Source: Cyanidiococcus yangmingshanensis (lineage: Eukaryota > Rhodophyta > Bangiophyceae > Cyanidiales > Cyanidiaceae). From it: a stretch of DNA of 64,000 nt. The DNA lies in NCBI GenBank assembly GCA_013995675.1, contig VWRR01000015.1:1-64000 (forward strand). Reading direction: 5' to 3'. The notes under the pieces are model-generated. The model was given only the letters and a program-made list of their open reading frames with translations. It was not told the origin of the DNA and did no database searches. How positions within the stretch are numbered: the first letter of the stretch is position 1; every line of letters begins with the position of its first letter. A program made the position numbers and the translations under genes. Positions 2,620 through 63,280 of this stretch are shown here, piece by piece.

Positions 2620-4375
2620 AATATAAAAGAAACCGGAGAAAAACTGAAGAACAAGGCCAGAAACCAGCCTCGAGACCCTGTGAAAACACAGCTTCGGCCC
2701 CGGCTCAACGCTACTGTCTGGCAGACTGGCCTGGGCCAGCCTGTGCACCCAATCACCGACGATTCTCAAAATCACAGCGAGACATACCAAACCAGGCCTG
2801 AAGCTACCAATAACACGTCTGTAAAAAGAAACCGGAGAAAAACTGAAGAACAAGGCCAGAAACCAGCCTCGAGACCCTGTGAAAACACAGCTTCGGCCCC
2901 GGCTCAACGCTACTGTCTGGCAGACTGGCTCGGGCCAGCCTGTGCACCCAATCACCGACGATTCTCAAAATCACAGCGAGGCATACCAAACCAGGCCTGA
3001 AGCTACCAATAACACGTCTGTAAAAAGAAACCGGAGAAAAACTGAAGAACAAGGCCAGAAACCAGCCTCGAAAGACTTTGAAAACACAGCTTCGGGCCCC
3101 GGCTCAACGCTACTGTCTGGCAGACTGGCTCGGGCCAGCCGGTGCACCCAATCACCGACGATTCTCAAAATCACAGCGAGGCATACCAAACCAGGCCTGA
3201 AGCTACCAATAACACGTCTGTAAAAAGAAACCGGAGAAAAACTAAAGAACAAGGCCAGAAACCAGCCTCGAGACCCTGTGAAAACACAGCTTCGGCCCCG
3301 GCTCAACGCCACCAGTCGATAGACTGGCCCGGGCCAGCCAGTGTGCTCAATCACCGACGATTCTCAAAATCACAGCGAGGCATACCAAACCAGGCCTGAA
3401 GCTACCAATAACACGTCTGTAAAAAGAAACCGGAGAAAAACTAAAGAACAAGGCCAGAAACCAGCCTCGAAAGACTTTGAAAACACAGCTTCGGGCCCCG
3501 GCTCAACGCTACTGTCTGGCAGACTGGCTCGGGCCAGCCGGTGCACCCAATCACCGACGATTCTCAAAATCACAGCGAGGCATACCAAACCAGGCCTGAA
3601 GCTACCAATAACACGTCTGTAAAAAGAAACCGGAGAAAAACTAAAGAACAAGGCCAGAAACCAGCCTCGAAAGACTTTGAAAACACAGCTTCGGCCCCGG
3701 CTCAACGCCACCAGTCGATAGACTGGCCCGGGCCAGCCAGTGTGCTCAATCACCGACGATTCTCAAAATCACAGCGAGGCATACCAAACCAGGCCTGAAG
3801 CTACCAATAACACGTGTGTAAAAAGAAACCGGAGAAAAACTAAAGAACAAGGCCAGAAACCAGCCTCGAAAGACTTTGAAAACACAGCTTCGGGCCCCGG
3901 CTCAACGCTACTGTCTGGCAGACTGGCTCGGGCCAGCCGGTGCACCCAATCACCGACGATTCTCAAAATCACAGCGAGGCATACCAAACCAGGCCTGAAG
4001 CTACCAATAACACGTCTGTAAAAAGAAACCGGAGAAAAACTAAAGAACAAGGCCAGAAACCAGCCTCGAAAGACTTTGAAAACACAGCTTCGGGCCCCGG
4101 CTCAACGCTACTGTCTGGCAGACTGGCTCGGGCCAGCCGGTGCACCCAATCACCGACGATTCTCAAAATCACAGCGAGGCATACCAAACCAGGCCTGAAG
4201 CTACCAATAACACGTCTGTAAAAAGAAACCGGAGAAAAACTGAAGAACAAGGCCAGAAACCAGCCTCGAGAGCCTGTGAAAACACAGCTTCGGCCCCGGC
4301 TCAACGCCACCAGTCGACAGACTGGCGTGGGCCAGCCGGTGTGCACCCAATCACCGACGATCCTCAGACTCTCAA
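2620..4375 (+). repeat. Array of about 199-bp tandem units, copy A
   Basis: The marker AAACCGGAGAAAAAC recurs nine times at steps of 199-200 bases (about 2630, 2829, 3029, 3229, 3428, 3627, 3827, 4026, 4225). Units differ by small blocks that look shuffled: some carry CTGTCTGGCAGACTGG, others CACCAGTCGATAGACTGG, in front of a GGGCCAGCC box. Several contain GCCAGTC-GATA-GACTGGC, a perfect 7-bp inverted repeat. A 199-base period is not divisible by three, so the array cannot encode a repeat protein in one frame. Confidence 0.95.
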
Positions 4376-8264: not shown

Positions 8265-9640
8265 AGAATATAAAAAGAAACCGGAGAAAAACAAAAGAAC
8301 AAGGCCAGAAACCAGCCTCGAGACCCTGTGAAAACACAGCTTCGGGCCCCGGCTCGACGCCGCCAGTCGATAGACTGGCCCGGGCCAGCCGGTGCACCCA
8401 ATCACCGACGATTCTCAAAATCACAGTGAGGCATACCAAACCACTCTTGAAGCCCTCAATAACACGTCTGTAAAAAGAAACCGGAGAAAAACTGAAGAAC
8501 AAGGCCAGAAACAAGCCACGAGAGCCTGTGAAAACACAGCTTCGGGTCCCGGCTCGACGCCACCAGTCGATAGACTGGCCTGGGCCAGCCGGTGCACCCA
8601 ATCACCGACGATTCTCAAAATCACAGCGAGGCATACCAAACCAGGCCTGAAGCTACCAATAACACGTCTGTAAAAAGAAACCGGAGAAAAACTAAAGAAC
8701 AAGGCCAGAAACCAGCCTCGAAAGACTTTGAAAACACAGCTTCGGGCCCCGGCTCAACGCTACTGTCTGGCAGACTGGCTCGGGCCAGCCTGTGCACCCA
8801 ATCACCGACGATTCTCAAAATCACAGCGAGGCATACCAAACCAGGCCTGAAGCTACCAATAACACGTCTGTAAAAAGAAACCGGAGAAAAACTAAAGAAC
8901 AAGGCCAGAAACCAGCCTCGAGACCCTGTGAAAACACAGCTTCGGCCCCGGCTCAACGCCACCAGTCGACAGACTGGCCTGGGCCAGCCGGTGCACCCAA
9001 TCACCGACGATTCTCAAAATCACAGCGAGGCATACCAAACCAGGCCTGAAGCTACCAATAACACGTGTGTAAAAAGAAACCGGAGAAAAACTGAAGAACA
9101 AGGCCAGAAACCAGCCTCGAGACCCTGTGAAAACACAGCTTCGGCCCCGGCTCAACGCCACCAGTCGACAGACTGGCCTGGGCCAGCCGGTGCACCCAAT
9201 CACCGACGATTCTCAAAATCACAGCGAGACATACCAAACCAGGCCTGAAGCTACCAATAACACGTCTGTAAAAAGAAACCGGAGAAAAACTGAAGAACAA
9301 GGCCAGAAACCAGCCTCGAGAGCCTGTGAAAACACAGCTTCGGCCCCGGCTCAACGCTACTGTCTGGCAGACTGGCCTGGGCCAGCCGGTGCACCCAATC
9401 ACCGACGATTCTCAAAATCACAGCGAGACATACCAAACCACTCTTGAAGCTACCAATAACACGTCTGTAAAAAGAAACCGGAGAAAAACTAAAGAACAAG
9501 GACAGAAACCAGCCTCGAGAGCCTGTGAAAACACAGCTTCGGCCCCGGCTCAACGCTACTGTCTGGCAGACTGGCCCGGGCCAGCCGGTGCACCCAATCA
9601 CCGACGATTCTCAAAATCACAGCGAGACATACCAAACCGT
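8265..9640 (+). repeat. Array of about 199-bp tandem units, copy B
   Basis: The AAACCGGAGAAAAAC marker occurs seven times at 199-200-base steps, against nine in copy A. The first two units carry CCAGTCGATAGACTGG. Later units mix both block types seen in copy A, in a different order. Confidence 0.95.
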
Positions 9641-56072: not shown

Positions 56073-58244
56073 TCAGATCTCTTCAACGAGCGCGGCTCGT
56101 AGCTCCTCGCGTTTCGCAGCATCATCATCATCGGCAGGGAATTTCTTGTCGAGTTCAGTGCCACTTGGCGGTTTTGAGGATCCGCCTCTCTGACGACGAA
56201 GCTGGGAGCGTCGTCGATCCATCACAGCCTGGAGACGGGGAGTAGGCGTGTTCTCATTCCTTTCGCGTCGGCCCAGCGCTCGTTGGAATTCCTCCCAGAA
56301 AACTACAATGTCTTCAAAGTCTGGGCGCTGCTGGCTACGTCGACGGAAGCAGCCGTCCAAGAGTGATTTGAGACCTTCGTCTGTCTCTCGTGGCGGATAC
56401 AGACGATCGCCCCGTTGCGCTACGCGATAGATCACCTGAATGGGATGCTCATTCGACCAGGGTTTCTCACCAGTGATCAGCTCCCAAACGATGACTCCGT
56501 ACGACCAGACGTCACTCTTCTCGTCGACGGCTTCGTGACGCATCACTTCGGGTGCCATCCATTCGGGGGTACCTGCCGCCCCAGTCATGAGCATGGTGTT
56601 GACGCGAGAACGGCTAAGACCGAAATCTGTCACGATCGGCATGCCGGTTTCACCGTCAATGAGCACATTCGGCGACTTGAGATCTCGATGGATCACCGGT
56701 GGACGTTGCGAGTGCAGATAAAGCATACCCTGCGCAATGCCCAGCGATAGAAATGCAATCTCGGCTAGGGTAAACGCGGGTCCATCTTCCGAACGTCGCG
56801 AATGAATCAGGCGATAGAGCGAGCCGCCACTAACAAACCCTAAAACAATGCAGAGATGGGGCGGTCTCGTCACCGTTCCACAAAACGGCACAATGTTCGG
56901 GTGTCGCAGTCGACTAAGAAGCACCATCTCCTTTTGGAAATCTTCCACCGTTTCAAGGCTGAAGCCGTCATCGTCTCGAGTGAGTTGTTTCACCGCCACG
57001 ACCAGACCACGCCATTCGGCCATGAACACTTCACCGAACGCTCCTGATCCAAGCTTGCTGCCGAGTTGCAGCTCGTCGTATGGTATATCCCACTTGGCTC
57101 GCCATTCAGAATCAAAGAGAAGCGGTGCGTTGCCATAATATTCCATTTCAGTGGCCCTGATCTCGACTGCATCAACCGTAACGGCTTCGTGCACGGTCGA
57201 TAGTGAGCGCTGCAGGGCCGCGGTCCCCGGTTCGGTACCCAATGCACCCTTTGCTGCCGCAACGAATCGGGATGGGTTCTGACCCTGATCCAATGTCCGC
57301 GACTGAAATCCAACACCTCGCGAGCAGAAACGCCACGGATCAGCATTCGGCTGACTCGCCGAGGATACGCCAGACGCATCCGACGAGTTCGTTTCGTTGA
57401 AGGATGCTCGCCTCGACTCGGGCGGCCCACGATTGCGAGATAAAGCAGAGGTGTTCACATCTCGGTTTTGTTGCCAGAGCTGCCGCGCGAGACCACCCTC
57501 ATGTTGCTCATGGCGGAGGTTCTCTACTCGCTCCAAACGACGATGAAGCGCTGCCAGATCACCGACGGCTCGCGGGAGTGCCTCTCGATTCTGTTCACGG
57601 CAATCGAGAACGCAACGATCTGGAATACATTGGGCCAGCGCGGGCAGATCCGCGCTCCGCCAATAGATCATGCAAAACGTCTCCGGACCAAACTCGCAAG
57701 CCTGACAGACCGCTAAAGAGAAAAGCGTGCCACACTGCGGTGAGCGGAAAAACGAGTCAGACACCAATGCAACCAGCCTCCGCGAATGAAGTAAGGCGCT
57801 ATACCATTCATCCATGAAGTACGCAGAACGCACTTCCGCTTCGTCACCAGCTGTTCGGGCGGATTCCAGTACCAACGGTTCTCGATTCATTGCACTTGCT
57901 GGTTCTGCAACGCGATTCTCCGAGTTGGCGACAGGATCTCCAATGTAGCTGGTTTTCCTCTCCTCGGACGATGCCATCACCGCACCGTCGGAAACGAGAT
58001 TCGGGCGCGCTTCCGCTTCCGCTGCTGCTGCTGCTGCTGCCGTCTGATCTGCAGTCGCAACGCCGCCGCCAGGCGCAATCTTGCTTGTAGCAGCGCCATC
58101 TTCAGAACCAAATATCGCCTTTGAGTGCGGTCCCGCAACGACCATTCTATCCAATGTCGCGATTAGCTCATTGACTGGCCTCGCATCGCCCTCTGTAATG
58201 GCGCTGGGAGCAGCCACAGACCCATTTGAAGCGGGCAGTGGCAT
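56073..58244 (-). CDS. TIR-half plus Raf-like (TKL) protein kinase
   Basis: A 723-codon frame with two recognisable parts. Residues about 145-255 read as the second half of a TIR fold: DEWYSALLHSRRLVALVSDSFFRSPQC, then ETFCMIYWRSADLP. Residues about 385-680 are a complete kinase domain of the Raf/CTR1-like TKL type: glycine loop GSGAFGEVF, VAVKQL, catalytic HRDLKSPN (about 518), DFGLSR (about 540), WMAPEVM and DVWSYGV. All catalytic residues are present, so the kinase should be active. The first 145 residues are low-complexity with an alanine run. The ATG at 58244 directly follows an in-frame TAG, and the frame overlaps the upstream macro/TIR frame by 77 bases at a +1 offset. The first TIR half lies in that frame, so both are probably one gene. 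Confidence 0.9.
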   Translation of the reverse strand: MPLPASNGSVAAPSAITEGDARPVNELIATLDRMVVAGPHSKAIFGSEDGAATSKIAPGGGVATADQTAAAAAAAEAEARPNLVSDGAVMASSEERKTSYIGDPVANSENRVAEPASAMNREPLVLESARTAGDEAEVRSAYFMDEWYSALLHSRRLVALVSDSFFRSPQCGTLFSLAVCQACEFGPETFCMIYWRSADLPALAQCIPDRCVLDCREQNREALPRAVGDLAALHRRLERVENLRHEQHEGGLARQLWQQNRDVNTSALSRNRGPPESRRASFNETNSSDASGVSSASQPNADPWRFCSRGVGFQSRTLDQGQNPSRFVAAAKGALGTEPGTAALQRSLSTVHEAVTVDAVEIRATEMEYYGNAPLLFDSEWRAKWDIPYDELQLGSKLGSGAFGEVFMAEWRGLVVAVKQLTRDDDGFSLETVEDFQKEMVLLSRLRHPNIVPFCGTVTRPPHLCIVLGFVSGGSLYRLIHSRRSEDGPAFTLAEIAFLSLGIAQGMLYLHSQRPPVIHRDLKSPNVLIDGETGMPIVTDFGLSRSRVNTMLMTGAAGTPEWMAPEVMRHEAVDEKSDVWSYGVIVWELITGEKPWSNEHPIQVIYRVAQRGDRLYPPRETDEGLKSLLDGCFRRRSQQRPDFEDIVVFWEEFQRALGRRERNENTPTPRLQAVMDRRRSQLRRQRGGSSKPPSGTELDKKFPADDDDAAKREELRAALVEEI

Positions 58245-60807
58245 CTACCAGGGCTGCCGTCGAATACCTGTCGGGCACCGGCTCAAGATCCGACGGTAAT
58301 GCAACCGATGGTGGCACAACGTCGCCATCTTCCGAAGCGGCAGGTTTCGCATTCCGCCGCGCGGATTCTGATCCTCCAATGTTGGTGGACGCCAGTTCCG
58401 ATTTCGAAATGAGCTCACCAATAGAGGTCGGTCCAGCACCTTGCAACGACGACGACTCGCTCCATTCACGTTGTTGCGCGAGTTCCGTTGCAGCAATATC
58501 AAGCGCGCGACTATGCATGTCAAATACCTTGAATCCGTATCGAGCTCGTAAGAGGTGAATGAGTTCCCAAGCCACTTTGGTGTCGTCGCGATGGTAAATA
58601 ATGAAAAAGTCCCGAGTGAATCGGCGTTTTTTCGGAGCTGCTCGCAATGGTGGCAGCGCTGTGTCCCTAGTCTCTGATGAGGAGTCGGGCCCTGCGCGAG
58701 GCGACGGCGCACAGACCGTCGTTGGTGGGGCCTCTATCGGTGCCGCCTGCGCAAGCGTATCCGTTGTGGGATCTGTTTCCTGATACGAGTGGCTGGGGTC
58801 ATATCGATATGACTCATCGAAACAGCCACGGAATGACGAAAGCAGCGCATACACCGGTGCAGTGCAGAAACCAGGAGGCAACAAGATCCGCACAAGTGGA
58901 AGGTTCAAACCAGCACTGCACCAGCGCAATGCTGCATCCAAAAGATAGGTCAGCACATCGATGCCCTCCGCAGCATATTCCAAGGATAGCGGAAACATGA
59001 CGCTACGTATAGCCGTTCTTCCAGTGCTGAGCAAGGTCAGAAAGCCGAACGCGTTCTGAATTACGCGCTTGTACGACAGCGAATGATTTCCATCCATCAC
59101 AAGAATTCTACGGAACTCGACACCTCGTGGACGCGGGCGCCGCAGCGCGCTTGTCACCCAGGCTGCATAATGCCGTCGATACGCACGCTGTGGTTTGGAT
59201 TCTGCCGCCAAAATCGGTAGATACAAACCGACAGAGCGCAGCTCTGCAAGAATGCTCGGCAAACTACTCTCCATCTTTGCAGGGACAATGGATTCCATCG
59301 GGATCGGATGAACCCTTGTGGGTTTTGTACCAGAGGCGGGCCATGGAGACGACGACTCTGGCGCGGTCGGCGCCATTCCCGTGGTCGATCCCGCATCACG
59401 GGAGCCCTCTGCATCAGCGCCTGGAGTATTCGATCCAAAAAGAAGGCTCAAGCTGAACTGGTTAGAAGGCCTGTGACTGGCCTGTGCGAGACCTCTCGAG
59501 GCCGGCTTCGTAGGGTTCGCACAGATAACCAGCAGATCCACCGCATCGCCCGCAGCCATATTCACCACGGATCCTTCACATACTTCCACGATTGATCGAC
59601 CAGAGGAACGATGAACGGTATAATACTCCTTACGCTGGAACGATTGCGCCAGCACAGGCAGCAGCGGCAGTGCTGCTTCTGGCGATGCTTCGGAGTCATC
59701 GGAGACGGGTCGTTCTCCGTTCGCCTCGGAAGTACGTCCCTCTGCAGTAGGTGCACCCACAACCGGTGCATCATCGCAAAGGCTCGAGACCACTCTATCT
59801 GGGCTGTTGAGCCGCTCGCCGATGGAGTGCTCACTCGCGATTGCCGGCGCCTCGTCGGTGTCGGCGTCATGAAGCTCGGGACTTGGAATCTCGGCGATCG
59901 CTGCCGCGTGCGCATCCGTCCGTGCATCTGTCGATGCCAGTGGTGGTTCCCGCAGACTATCGATGCTTTCAGGTACAGTCGATGACTGATCGATGGGCGC
60001 GGCTTGATTTCGCGCACCTAAGGGCATCCCCGCCGGATCCGTAATGCTTTGAGAGTGATTCGCATCTTCGGCATGAAGATCAGTGTAGCCTTCAGGTTTG
60101 GGCCTCAACTCGAATTTGGCGTATCCATTGAGTGCATCTGTTGAGAAAGACTGCCCCGATCGACAACCCTCCTCTGTGGAAAGAGAGCGCTCTTGAGGTA
60201 TGTTCGTCATCATTGATGCAGAGGGTTCCCGTGTCGCACGCGATCTGTGGTCATCCCCATGGAATGATCGAGATCCACCACTAGCCGTACTACCTGCACG
60301 GAGTTTCTCGCGCCGCGATGGCGGCTGCGTACTCGTCGATGAGCCACTGACCCCAGACAACCCATCGCGAGCGGACGGTACTGCATTCGCGTCTTTCGGG
60401 CAATAAACGCGCTGTAGCTCTCCATCCAACCAGATCGAAGAGTCGCCTCCGAGACCGGCGGGCCCGACCGAGGTGCCCAGATTTCCGAGGCCGCGCAGGT
60501 ATGACCCGACCAATAGCGCAAGAACACGGGCAGCAAAATTGCGCTTTTTGGATGGATCTCGGGTTCGGGCAAGTCGCTTTCGTCGCTGAAGGCTTTCAGC
60601 CCCTGACATCGACTGCACTTGTGATGCGGTTATCGGGGCCTCCGCCAAATCCAAGGCCTCCTCAACCTCATGCGGAGGCGCTGTTCGCGACTTGCGACCT
60701 CGGCGGAAGAACCGTCGTCGAGGCTGCCGCTTCTCGGAGGCGCCCACAAACTGATCCTCCGCAGCTTGTTTCATGTCGTTGTTCGCGAAATGAACCATTC
60801 CAGACAT
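58168..60807 (-). CDS. Macro-like and TIR-half protein, probable N-terminal part of the TIR-kinase gene
   Basis: From the ATG at 60807 this frame has 879 codons (an in-frame GTG at 61092 would add 95). The first 400 residues are low-complexity, rich in S, R and E, probably disordered. About 400-665 resembles a divergent macro domain (ADP-ribose-binding fold): GRSIVEVCEGSV, then DAVDLLVICANPTKP in place of the usual VDAIVNAAN, later TAIRSVMFPLSLEYAAEG and LPLVRILLPPG. The glycine-rich phosphate loop is not kept. At about 725-770, RDFFIIYHRDDTKVAWELIHLL then YGFKVFDMHSRALD matches the opening strands of a TIR domain. The frame runs out at 58168 without the rest of the TIR, which continues in the overlapping kinase frame. 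TIR call fairly firm, macro call tentative. Confidence 0.75.
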   Translation of the reverse strand: MSGMVHFANNDMKQAAEDQFVGASEKRQPRRRFFRRGRKSRTAPPHEVEEALDLAEAPITASQVQSMSGAESLQRRKRLARTRDPSKKRNFAARVLALLVGSYLRGLGNLGTSVGPAGLGGDSSIWLDGELQRVYCPKDANAVPSARDGLSGVSGSSTSTQPPSRREKLRAGSTASGGSRSFHGDDHRSRATREPSASMMTNIPQERSLSTEEGCRSGQSFSTDALNGYAKFELRPKPEGYTDLHAEDANHSQSITDPAGMPLGARNQAAPIDQSSTVPESIDSLREPPLASTDARTDAHAAAIAEIPSPELHDADTDEAPAIASEHSIGERLNSPDRVVSSLCDDAPVVGAPTAEGRTSEANGERPVSDDSEASPEAALPLLPVLAQSFQRKEYYTVHRSSGRSIVEVCEGSVVNMAAGDAVDLLVICANPTKPASRGLAQASHRPSNQFSLSLLFGSNTPGADAEGSRDAGSTTGMAPTAPESSSPWPASGTKPTRVHPIPMESIVPAKMESSLPSILAELRSVGLYLPILAAESKPQRAYRRHYAAWVTSALRRPRPRGVEFRRILVMDGNHSLSYKRVIQNAFGFLTLLSTGRTAIRSVMFPLSLEYAAEGIDVLTYLLDAALRWCSAGLNLPLVRILLPPGFCTAPVYALLSSFRGCFDESYRYDPSHSYQETDPTTDTLAQAAPIEAPPTTVCAPSPRAGPDSSSETRDTALPPLRAAPKKRRFTRDFFIIYHRDDTKVAWELIHLLRARYGFKVFDMHSRALDIAATELAQQREWSESSSLQGAGPTSIGELISKSELASTNIGGSESARRNAKPAASEDGDVVPPSVALPSDLEPVPDRYSTAALVDATARFKWVCGCSQRHYRGRCEASQ

Positions 60808-62216
60808 GTTCAGCAAGAAAACTGCCGGAACTATCTGGGTAACTGCAGCAGACCGACCTCGCCGGTGCGGACTTTGCAGCCCTTGCGACAAGCAAGATTC
60901 AATTCTATTTCGTGTCAATGTCCAAAAGAGGTCAAATATAGCAGCGCTACCAAAGCCGCGGCCTCCTGCTATTTCAGTGCGCCACTCTGGCTGCTGATGC
61001 TCGTTCTCCGGAACGCTTTCCGGCTGATCAAGAACCTGAACGCCACGCTTCGTAGCGAATGCTACCTCAAGACAACCTCTGCTGCGAAACACAAACTGAA
61101 ACTATCTAAATATCAAAGGATATCTCGAAGAGAAGCCGAGAAGCTCTCGGACGAGTTTCGACAGCCGCTCAGAAAACGCGAGCCAGTCGCGCGCAGCGAC
61201 GCCGCTGCACTACCAGCCCCAGAGCCGTTTGAGCGTCAACTATTGCCTACCCGGCAACAGATGCCAAGTCCCGTCCCTGAACGCCTAAATACCTTGCCCG
61301 TTTTTAGAGTAAACCCAGGCGTTACGAACAAGCGCTTGCCAACAAGAACACAACCTCTCGGATACAAATTGCAACAACGTATGCACGCATGCGTGCGCGC
61401 TGCCACCACGCACGCACCATGCGTGTGTCCGTTCAATCCGTGCGTGCATATGCATGCAAGCAGTGGCGCTGCGTGCGGATGGCATCGACCGGTGGCCCGC
61501 TGCGCAGCCGCAACCGGTGACAGCGATTGCCAAAGATGCTGCACCGCAGTCCCGTTTCGAGATTCGTATAGCGTCTGCACCGTTGCATGCGCACCCGTCC
61601 GCGGTCTCGCTGGCCGAACACGCATCACTGGATATGCATTGTTTGGTCGACCAAAATATCCACAGATAACCGAGTACGCATTCCTTGGTTGTCGAAAACC
61701 CCCGTGTACGATCGAGTGTGCATTCCTTGGTCAACGATCGTTCTATGCGTACGATGCGGGTCGTCGGCCAACGCCCCGTGGTGACGACCCAGAGACGTTT
61801 ACGGCGACTCTGAGCGAATGCATGGTGGCCTGGACGCTTGTCGTGAAGTATTACATTCTCGTACAGGCCGATTGGCCACCATGCTCTCTGTGTCTAGCGG
61901 GATGCGTGCCGTCACCCGAATGAGAAGAGACAAATGTTTTGTAGGCCTAGGTCGTTGCACCCCGTAGACATGCGGAGGCGTAGATTATGTGATTTGGATC
62001 AATCGTGTGGCCTTGGGTTGCTCCATACGCTCTGCAAGTCGACGGATGGCCTGATGTATGCTTCGTCTTGGAGAGATGTGCCTACTCTGAGTGTTCCGAA
62101 TATGGTCGCGTCATCATACATGCCAGGTTTTTTCTTGTTGCTGGGTGCGTTTCGGGCGCTCTCGGCGCCTGCATTCGGCTGACGCCCCAACGGCGAGTAC
62201 GATAGGCGCGTTGGTC
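60808..62216. other. Divergent spacer upstream of TSR3
   Basis: Contains GCATGCGTGCGTGC-like alternating stretches near 61385-61455 and three imperfect repeats of TACGCATTCCTTGGTTGTCG type at about 61636-61735. A 417-codon plus-strand frame (60670-61923) spans it, but its content is repeat-derived and its left part is antisense to the macro/TIR gene. Not called as a gene. Confidence 0.5.
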
Positions 62217-62918
62217 ATGCGCTTGCGAGTTATGGGCCCAGAGCCGCTTCTGGGTCCCAACTCGGAGCTGGATCGTCCAGATAGAGAGGAACACGAGCAG
62301 ATTCGTCTGTACATGTATGACTTTGGGCAGTGCGATGTGCGTCGCTGTACTGGACGCAAGCTGCTTCGACACGGCTTATTGTGCTCGTTGCGGTTAGGGG
62401 TCCCGTGTCACGGGGTACTGCTCTCACCGGACGCTTCCACAGTGCTTTCGCGCGCGGACGAAACGTGTGTGCGCAAATGGGGGCTCGCTGTTATCGACTG
62501 TTCATGGAATCAGATTGAAGCGTCTTCTTTACGTCGGGTACATTGTCGGGGCCTAGGACAACGACGACTCTTGCCGACGCTCCAAGCAGTCAACCCAGTA
62601 AACTACGGCCGTGGAGCTCGACTGAGTTGCGCGGAAGCTCTCGCTGCGGCGCTCTATATTGTGGGTTGCAAGTCGACAGCGCGGCGTGTCTTGCAGCCGT
62701 TCGGCTGGAGCCATGCTTTCTGGGATGTCAATCAGGTGGCTTTGGATATGTATGCGGCCTGTCCGGACGCTGATGCTGTTCTTCTCGCCCAAGATGCCTG
62801 GCTAAAGCAGGTAACGCGAGAGTATGTGGAAGCAAGAGCTCAATGGGATCCTTTCGCTGGTCTGGACTCGGATGAATCGGACTCCAGTGCGAAAGCAGAC
62901 GCTCCAAACAACGGATGA
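62217..62918 (+). CDS. TSR3: 18S rRNA aminocarboxypropyltransferase TSR3
   Basis: Transfers the aminocarboxypropyl group of SAM to the N1-methyl-pseudouridine of 18S rRNA, a late cytoplasmic step in small-subunit maturation. Seen in the 233-residue product from the ATG at 62217: YMYDFGQCDVRRCTGRKLLRHGL (about 30-52), GVLLSPDASTVLSRAD, VIDCSWNQI, and the long family signature LPTLQAVNPVNYGR followed by LSCAEALAAALYIVGC. A short acidic tail is usual for the family. The frame extends upstream to a GTG at 62091, but that part has no homology. The stop codon at 62916-62918 falls within the first unit of the 98-bp tandem repeat. Frame intact. Confidence 0.95.
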   Translation: MRLRVMGPEPLLGPNSELDRPDREEHEQIRLYMYDFGQCDVRRCTGRKLLRHGLLCSLRLGVPCHGVLLSPDASTVLSRADETCVRKWGLAVIDCSWNQIEASSLRRVHCRGLGQRRLLPTLQAVNPVNYGRGARLSCAEALAAALYIVGCKSTARRVLQPFGWSHAFWDVNQVALDMYAACPDADAVLLAQDAWLKQVTREYVEARAQWDPFAGLDSDESDSSAKADAPNNG

Positions 62919-63280
62919 AGGGGTATGGTCGTTACTCTCATGGTTTCATCGCTCGGGTTCGAGCACGGTATCGCCATGATTTAGAAGTGGTCTTATCTGC
63001 CCGAGATAACGGATGCAGGGGTATGGTCGTTACTCTCATGGTTTCATCGCTCGGGTTCGAGCACGGTATCGCCATGATTTAGAAGTGGTCTTATCTGCCC
63101 GAGATAACGGATGCAGGGGTATGGTCGTTACTCTCATGGTTTCATCGCTCGGGTTCGAGCACGGTATCGCCATGATTTAGAAGTGGTCTTATCTGCCCGA
63201 GATAACGGATGCAGGGGTATGGTCGTTACTCTCATGGTTTCATCGCTCGGGTTCGAGCACGGTATCGCCATGATTTAGAA
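62910..63280 (+). repeat. 98-bp tandem repeat, 3.75 near-identical copies
   Basis: The mark GTATGGTCGTTACTCTCATG recurs at 62923, 63021, 63119 and 63217, exactly 98 bases apart, with almost no differences between copies. Each full unit holds two perfect hairpins: GCTCG-GGTT-CGAGC, and TTATCT-GCCCG-AGATAA about 30 bases later. The first unit begins over the TSR3 stop codon, so the array would lie in that gene's 3' untranslated region. The GGTTCGA core recalls a tRNA T-loop, but the pairing around it is wrong for one. Confidence 0.95.

Follow-up and report, generated by a model that had tools for sequence, protein, structure and literature searches.

A CTR1-type Raf-like kinase gene with a putative macro–TIR module in Cyanidiococcus yangmingshanensis, a likely member of a red-algal family

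The window analysed here, that is, the whole stretch of 64,000 nucleotides taken from contig VWRR01000015.1 of the red alga Cyanidiococcus yangmingshanensis, carries on its minus strand (56073 to 60807) what appears to be a single gene for a CTR1-type Raf-like kinase preceded by a macro-fold domain and a TIR domain. Its coding sequence is divided between two long open reading frames (ORFs): 61092-58168, whose likely start is the ATG at 60807, giving 879 amino acids, and 58244-56073 (723 amino acids). The two lie in different frames and overlap by 77 nt (58168-58244). Neither can be attributed to chance, since the longest open frame found in base shuffles of the 5-kb strand (n = 300) reached 303 codons (median 144), far below both ORF lengths. 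The elements recognised along the gene are as follows.

56073..60807, minus strand: whole gene, about 1,577 codons in two frames (ORFs; read-through protein P0001; intact single-ORF relatives P0002 and P0003)
60442..60588, minus strand: conserved basic/amphipathic N-terminal stretch, KKRNFAARVLALLVGSYLRGLGNLGTSVG (alignment; common to P0002 and P0003)
58813..59646, minus strand: predicted macro-fold domain with degenerate ADP-ribose motifs and a low-confidence insert at about 59266-59487 (AlphaFold2, Foldseek, VIA-align, motif counts)
58453..58614, minus strand: putative first half of the TIR domain, upstream frame, with the RDFFIIYH strand, helix A and the FKVFDM strand (insert-removed TIR_2 match; alignment)
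57843..58452, minus strand: TIR insert, low-complexity and fast-evolving (alignment with P0002 and P0003; the compact red-algal relatives examined are without it)
58170..58250, minus strand: frame-break zone (ORFs overlap at 58168-58244; relatives unbroken)
57525..57842, minus strand: putative second half of the TIR domain, with helix B, VALVSDSFF, the SPQCGTLF helix and the later strand/helix pairs (TIR_2; BLASTP with P0144; residue counts)
56304..57071, minus strand: TKL (CTR1-type Raf-like) kinase domain (PF07714; motifs in the ORF; CTR1 3ppz; trees)

A preliminary description of the locus held that the two frames belong together, and our results bear this out. We read both frames through into a hypothetical protein of 1,577 amino acids (P0001), and apart from the frame break there is no stop within its approximately 1,577 codons. 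When the macro–TIR region of P0001 was searched against 5.8 billion proteins (8,000 candidates scored, E up to 1), two proteins were returned, P0002 (1559 amino acids, 56% identity) and P0003 (1451 amino acids, 46%), both from metagenome-type sources and each a single unbroken protein spanning 100% of the query region. The joining of both frames into one gene is supported by these uninterrupted relatives. In this regard, tblastn with P0002 follows the upstream frame until about 58240 and finds the remaining TIR and the kinase in the downstream frame, which places the break at about 58170-58250, and therefore inside the poorly conserved TIR insert. The break most likely reflects either a recent small indel or a slip of the assembly within that insert, and not a gene boundary; the single assembly at hand does not separate a recent mutation from a slip.

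If the locus instead comprised two separate genes, or a pseudogene in decay, the downstream ORF would yield a short kinase that has only half a TIR and starts from its own ATG at 58244. The frames do break, and this ATG stands directly after an in-frame stop. We nevertheless consider such an arrangement unlikely: homology to an unbroken relative extends up to the break, the two frames hold no other stop, the kinase is 90% identical to that of P0002, and a halved TIR should not fold.

The gene appears to belong to a red-algal macro–TIR–kinase family, although in the window it does so only across the frame break. A search with the kinase region (8,000 candidates scored) gave 5,013 matches at E up to 1e-20; among the best 120 of them, 70 carry a TIR_2 call together with the kinase, and every such match with an organism label comes from a red alga (Porphyridium, Timspurckia, Madagascaria, Purpureofilum, Chondrus, Gracilariopsis and Pyropia). 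Porphyridium, Chondrus and Gracilariopsis share the macro–TIR–kinase order, as does Galdieria with a weak TIR; the Galdieria partita protein has the same domain order with a TIR below Pfam's cut-off. In all nine family proteins examined at full length, the TIR region and the kinase are preceded by a macro-like domain. The parts in the window and these relatives together confirm the order proposed in the preliminary description, which had also suggested a search for it in other algae. Finding it in several red algae replaces the idea of a single-alga protein by that of a local copy of a family spread through the red algae.

Our family alignment comprises 68 rows, namely 62 of the 70 proteins, P0002, P0003, P0126, P0217, P0231 and the window's own; P0171, P0199, P0206, P0207, P0212, P0213, P0216 and P0219 were left out, and an alternative alignment (A7), the tail of which was scattered, was dropped. 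One row, likely P0196, which starts late, is gapped at the macro column tested below. The compact red-algal members were reached by the kinase-region search only, both macro–TIR-based searches having missed them. A profile search with P0002 and P0003 gave 127 matches, and among the best 120 all but these two proteins cover 7-27% of the query; these were taken, as a group, to be probable kinase-only matches. No row named Cyanidioschyzon merolae 10D occurs among the matches listed, most of which carry no organism label, so that its absence is not implied.

The kinase domain matches PF07714 at E 2.5e-56 and 191 bits (cut-off 23), and the ORF contains VAVK, HRDLKSPN, DFG and APE, motifs also present in P0002, P0003 and P0126; the earlier claim that the kinase is certain from its motifs is well founded. 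Across 67 family rows, HxDxK..N, DFGLS and APE are each kept in all 67, and [VA]AVK.L in 61. With its catalytic motifs intact and plant CTR1 as the nearest PDB sequence (3ppz, E 5.1e-72), this is a TKL kinase of the CTR1/EDR1 type. In a careful tree of 35 hand-chosen rows, the macro–TIR members, 18 in number, fall into a single clade (support 100/100), which lies inside a group of 26 rows (80/87) that also takes in plant and green-algal EDR1/CTR1 kinases, and a quick wider tree of 50 rows recovers the identical red-algal clade. Among the CTR1/EDR1-type (group B) Raf-like MAP3Ks, the plant matches have PF14381, the EDR1 domain, whereas here a macro–TIR module stands instead. N-terminal to this kinase PF14381 is lacking: no match was found in either ORF (E up to 10), in P0180, P0144, P0225, P0126, P0231 or P0217 (E up to 1), or across the whole genome in a search without a positive control.

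The Galdieria-type proteins P0217 and P0231 have HMDLKSPN as catalytic loop instead of HRDLKSPN, which, together with TIRs below Pfam's cut-off, suggests that the family is fast-evolving in these members. Another TKL kinase of the genome (L006, G000:C16:648245-649042, minus strand) branches just outside the EDR1 and red-algal group.

As for the TIR domain, the raw downstream frame gave a merely suggestive match to TIR_2 (E 0.058). Once the insert was manually removed, the window's TIR covered positions 1-109 of the 122 in TIR_2, with E 8.8e-6 and 26.6 bits (cut-off 28); P0002 and P0003, treated likewise, scored 22.8 and 24.8 bits, below the cut-off. This match and the alignment agree with the earlier observation that the two TIR halves flank the frame overlap in the right order around a low-complexity insert. 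Six further members were scanned, and Chondrus P0180 (43.2 bits), Porphyridium P0144 (42.5) and P0225 (46.6) lie above the cut-off, with P0126, Galdieria partita P0231 and the similar P0217 below it at 15.4-20.3 bits. A profile of ten family TIRs, with no cyanidiophyte row among them, matched 57 PDB sequences at E up to 1, including TLR2 (6.8e-6), the CRISPR-associated TIR Cat1 (4.8e-5) and MyD88 (6.2e-5). Three of six members over the cut-off and these TIR matches in the PDB point to a TIR fold in the family, to which the window's TIR is tied by BLASTP of its second half against the Porphyridium TIR of P0144 (E 2e-10) and by its alignment with P0002, P0003 and P0126. In the AlphaFold2 model of the Chondrus protein, region 255-395 alternates strands and helices in a TIR-like manner (block pLDDT 77-97 over 251-390). 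VIA-align of this full model gave kinases alone among the 50 rows listed, so that the evidence for the fold comes from sequence profiles and from the predicted strand/helix order. A PF13676 profile search of the alga's own genome found no match despite the presence of this gene, probably because the frame break and the insert split the TIR; with the Porphyridium TIR as query, this gene was the sole match in that genome.

In TIR domains, the Glu of the WCxxE helix is the catalytic residue. We fixed its column by aligning the family TIRs with TLR2 and Cat1, and no Glu occurs there in any of the 68 rows (A in 54, L in 6, S in 3, T in 3, N in 2); the window has Leu at this position (57723-57725). 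Judged by this residue, the family's TIR would probably not cleave NAD.

The macro fold was revealed by structure prediction only, because Pfam Macro gave no match in the macro region, and a PDB profile search with a 10-row macro alignment returned nothing. AlphaFold2 modelling of the window's own frame, followed by Foldseek and VIA-align, predicts a clear macro fold. Of the checks proposed in the preliminary description, structure prediction gave the macro fold, the Pfam Macro match did not materialise, and TIR_2 came out just under its cut-off. One insert-removed relative matched DUF3648 below that profile's cut-off. Scanned for the macro-like domain, bacterial and archaeal genomes yielded 13 pattern matches, none of them a relative.

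Macro domains bind ADP-ribose through an adenine-binding Asp (GDI motif) and the NAAN, GGG and STGxxG loops. The adenine-Asp column holds Asp in none of the 67 rows having a residue there; in the column assigned by eye to the NAAN motif's first Asn, all 67 rows have Val or Ile; and the aligned macro core contains no GGG loop. In place of STGxxG, the window has LSLEYAA as its second loop and most rows have LSGALLS; of the last loop, one Gly is conserved in 64 of 68 rows and missing from the window. On these motif residues, an ADP-ribose-binding macro domain is not to be expected, and the family differs in its lack of the adenine-binding Asp, the GGG loop and STGxxG from canonical macrodomains such as those of PARP9, PARP14, PARP15 and macroH2A1.1. 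The sole Macro (PF01661) match in the genome, at another locus (L002, G000:C8:140618-140992, minus strand; 128.8 bits), has GGGGVDGAIH and ISCGVYG motifs and contrasts clearly with the degenerate macro part of the kinase gene.

Taken together, we propose, with a probability of roughly 0.6, that the gene encodes a CTR1-type kinase on which a macro–TIR part serves as regulatory scaffold, and that it represents, in the cyanidiophytes, an ancient kinase family of the red algae whose order would be disordered tail, macro-fold domain, TIR domain and CTR1-type Raf-like (TKL) kinase. Both accessory domains look like former enzymes or sensors that now serve for control. They would no longer cleave NAD, and would act as a regulatory, self-association module at the place where the EDR1 domain sits in plant CTR1/EDR1 kinases. 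Upon a stress or immune cue, the TIR modules could self-associate in the manner of MyD88 and other TIR adaptors, bringing the kinase domains together so that they activate each other and feed a MAP-kinase-type cascade; alternatively, the macro–TIR part might regulate the kinase through some ligand instead of self-association. The protein starts add a hint on location. Among 67 family rows, 62 start with Met, and 20 of these fit the generally known N-myristoylation pattern, such as MGNxxSS (P0138, P0157, P0173 and P0198, for example), which suggests a membrane location for a good part of the red algae. Such a start, which neither the cyanidiophyte nor the Galdieria-type rows have, would anchor many of the remaining red-algal members at membranes.

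ASK1-type MAP3Ks are likewise stress-activated kinases controlled by a large N-terminal module, although we see no domain order common to both. The literature examined gave no support for this parallel, and a word search of the accessible part of one source did not find TIR (PMC10972558). Closer at hand, two TIR+Pkinase genes, py01330.t1 and py08661.t1, are listed for Pyropia yezoensis, which also has TIR and kinase in one red-algal gene; the accessible part of that source does not mention a macro part (Tang et al., 2019, PMC6928737). One of them, py01330.t1, was up 1.51- and 1.59-fold in two stages of infection by the oomycete Pythium (PMC6928737). TIR plus kinase in a red alga is thus already known as a table entry (PMC6928737). 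The preliminary statement that no family of this order was described may hold for the macro part; what would be new is a Raf-like MAP3K with a macro-containing regulatory module. We found no open-access full text on the macro domain of this family, its spread through red algae or its CTR1/EDR1 placement, subscription papers and preprints being outside the search.

The nearest functional precedent for pairing both folds is TM-macro Thoeris, in which, according to the part of the source available, the TIR makes ADPR and IAD, and the macro domain binds them and oligomerises (PMC11204291). The two systems are alike in pairing TIR with macro, there for immune signalling that is switched by oligomerisation of the macro domain; however, Thoeris consists of two bacterial proteins with working NAD chemistry and no kinase (PMC11204291), and the red-algal family is without the classical residues for such chemistry.

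Several points weigh against a macro–TIR scaffold on a CTR1-type kinase. The window and three of the six family members scanned fall short of the TIR cut-off, and the Chondrus model has a pTM of 0.58, hence domain contacts are not defined. The EDR1/CTR1 placement is only moderately supported, with long branches meeting there and a tentative branching within the group; the EDR1 rows group together in just 7% of bootstrap trees. A Glu lies one residue ahead of the classical TIR site in 62 of 68 rows and could shift into it. In Pyropia, the induction is small, the second gene missed the threshold (1 and 1.27), and, within the part of the source available, the genes are likened by description, not by sequence (PMC6928737).

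The macro–TIR part could instead be a built-in receptor for an NAD-derived or other nucleotide signal, gating a CTR1-type MAP3K through a re-built ligand pocket, for which the conserved KPQxxYRRHYxxWL stretch is an example site. We hold this to be quite improbable; such a receptor would amount to a eukaryotic counterpart, in one protein, of Thoeris-type signalling, preserved throughout red-algal history. An active relay, with the TIR making an NAD-derived nucleotide, the macro domain binding it and the kinase being activated, Thoeris-like in one polypeptide, is likewise quite improbable. It can draw on the occurrence of macro and TIR folds in a single chain, on the bacterial precedent and on the Glu ahead of the usual site. 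That displaced Glu, however, is found in none of the four cyanidiophyte and neither of the two Galdieria-type rows, and in the window the two places open to a Glu are taken by Thr and Leu. The NAD reading is weakened because the catalytic Glu and the adenine Asp are absent from every row scored; with Val or Ile in the NAAN column and the GGG loop missing as well, the residues do not back the preliminary idea of NAD-derived signalling joined to phosphorylation, although coupling may run via another ligand. The least probable alternative, a short intron or programmed frameshifting linking both frames, would likewise yield one protein, but P0002 homology enters the overlap from the upstream side, leaving little room for an intron, and few are reported for Cyanidiales genomes, described as intron-poor with counts of 27, 36 and 44, which in the accessible part of the source we take to be those of the three genomes (PMC9812998).

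A regulatory macro–TIR scaffold would have consequences beyond this locus. Red algae stand close to green plants as an outgroup, and little is known, as far as we are aware, of their receptors for stress and immunity. The family, near plant CTR1/EDR1 and spanning unicellular hot-spring algae to seaweeds, would carry macro–TIR where plants have EDR1, raising a testable question on how these kinases were controlled before land-plant ethylene and pathogen signalling took them over. It would also be a eukaryotic example of macro and TIR domains recruited jointly, a pairing that we otherwise know only from bacterial phage defence.

Elsewhere in the window, two arrays of a similar tandem unit of about 200 bp lie close to the start of the contig, at 2625-4366 and 8271-9638 (8.7 and 6.9 copies, 94% matches inside each array), and are satellite- or subtelomere-like. 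At 62910-63280, a 98-bp tandem repeat (3.8 copies, 99% match) adjoins a plus-strand ORF at 62091-62918 and is possibly a recent expansion.
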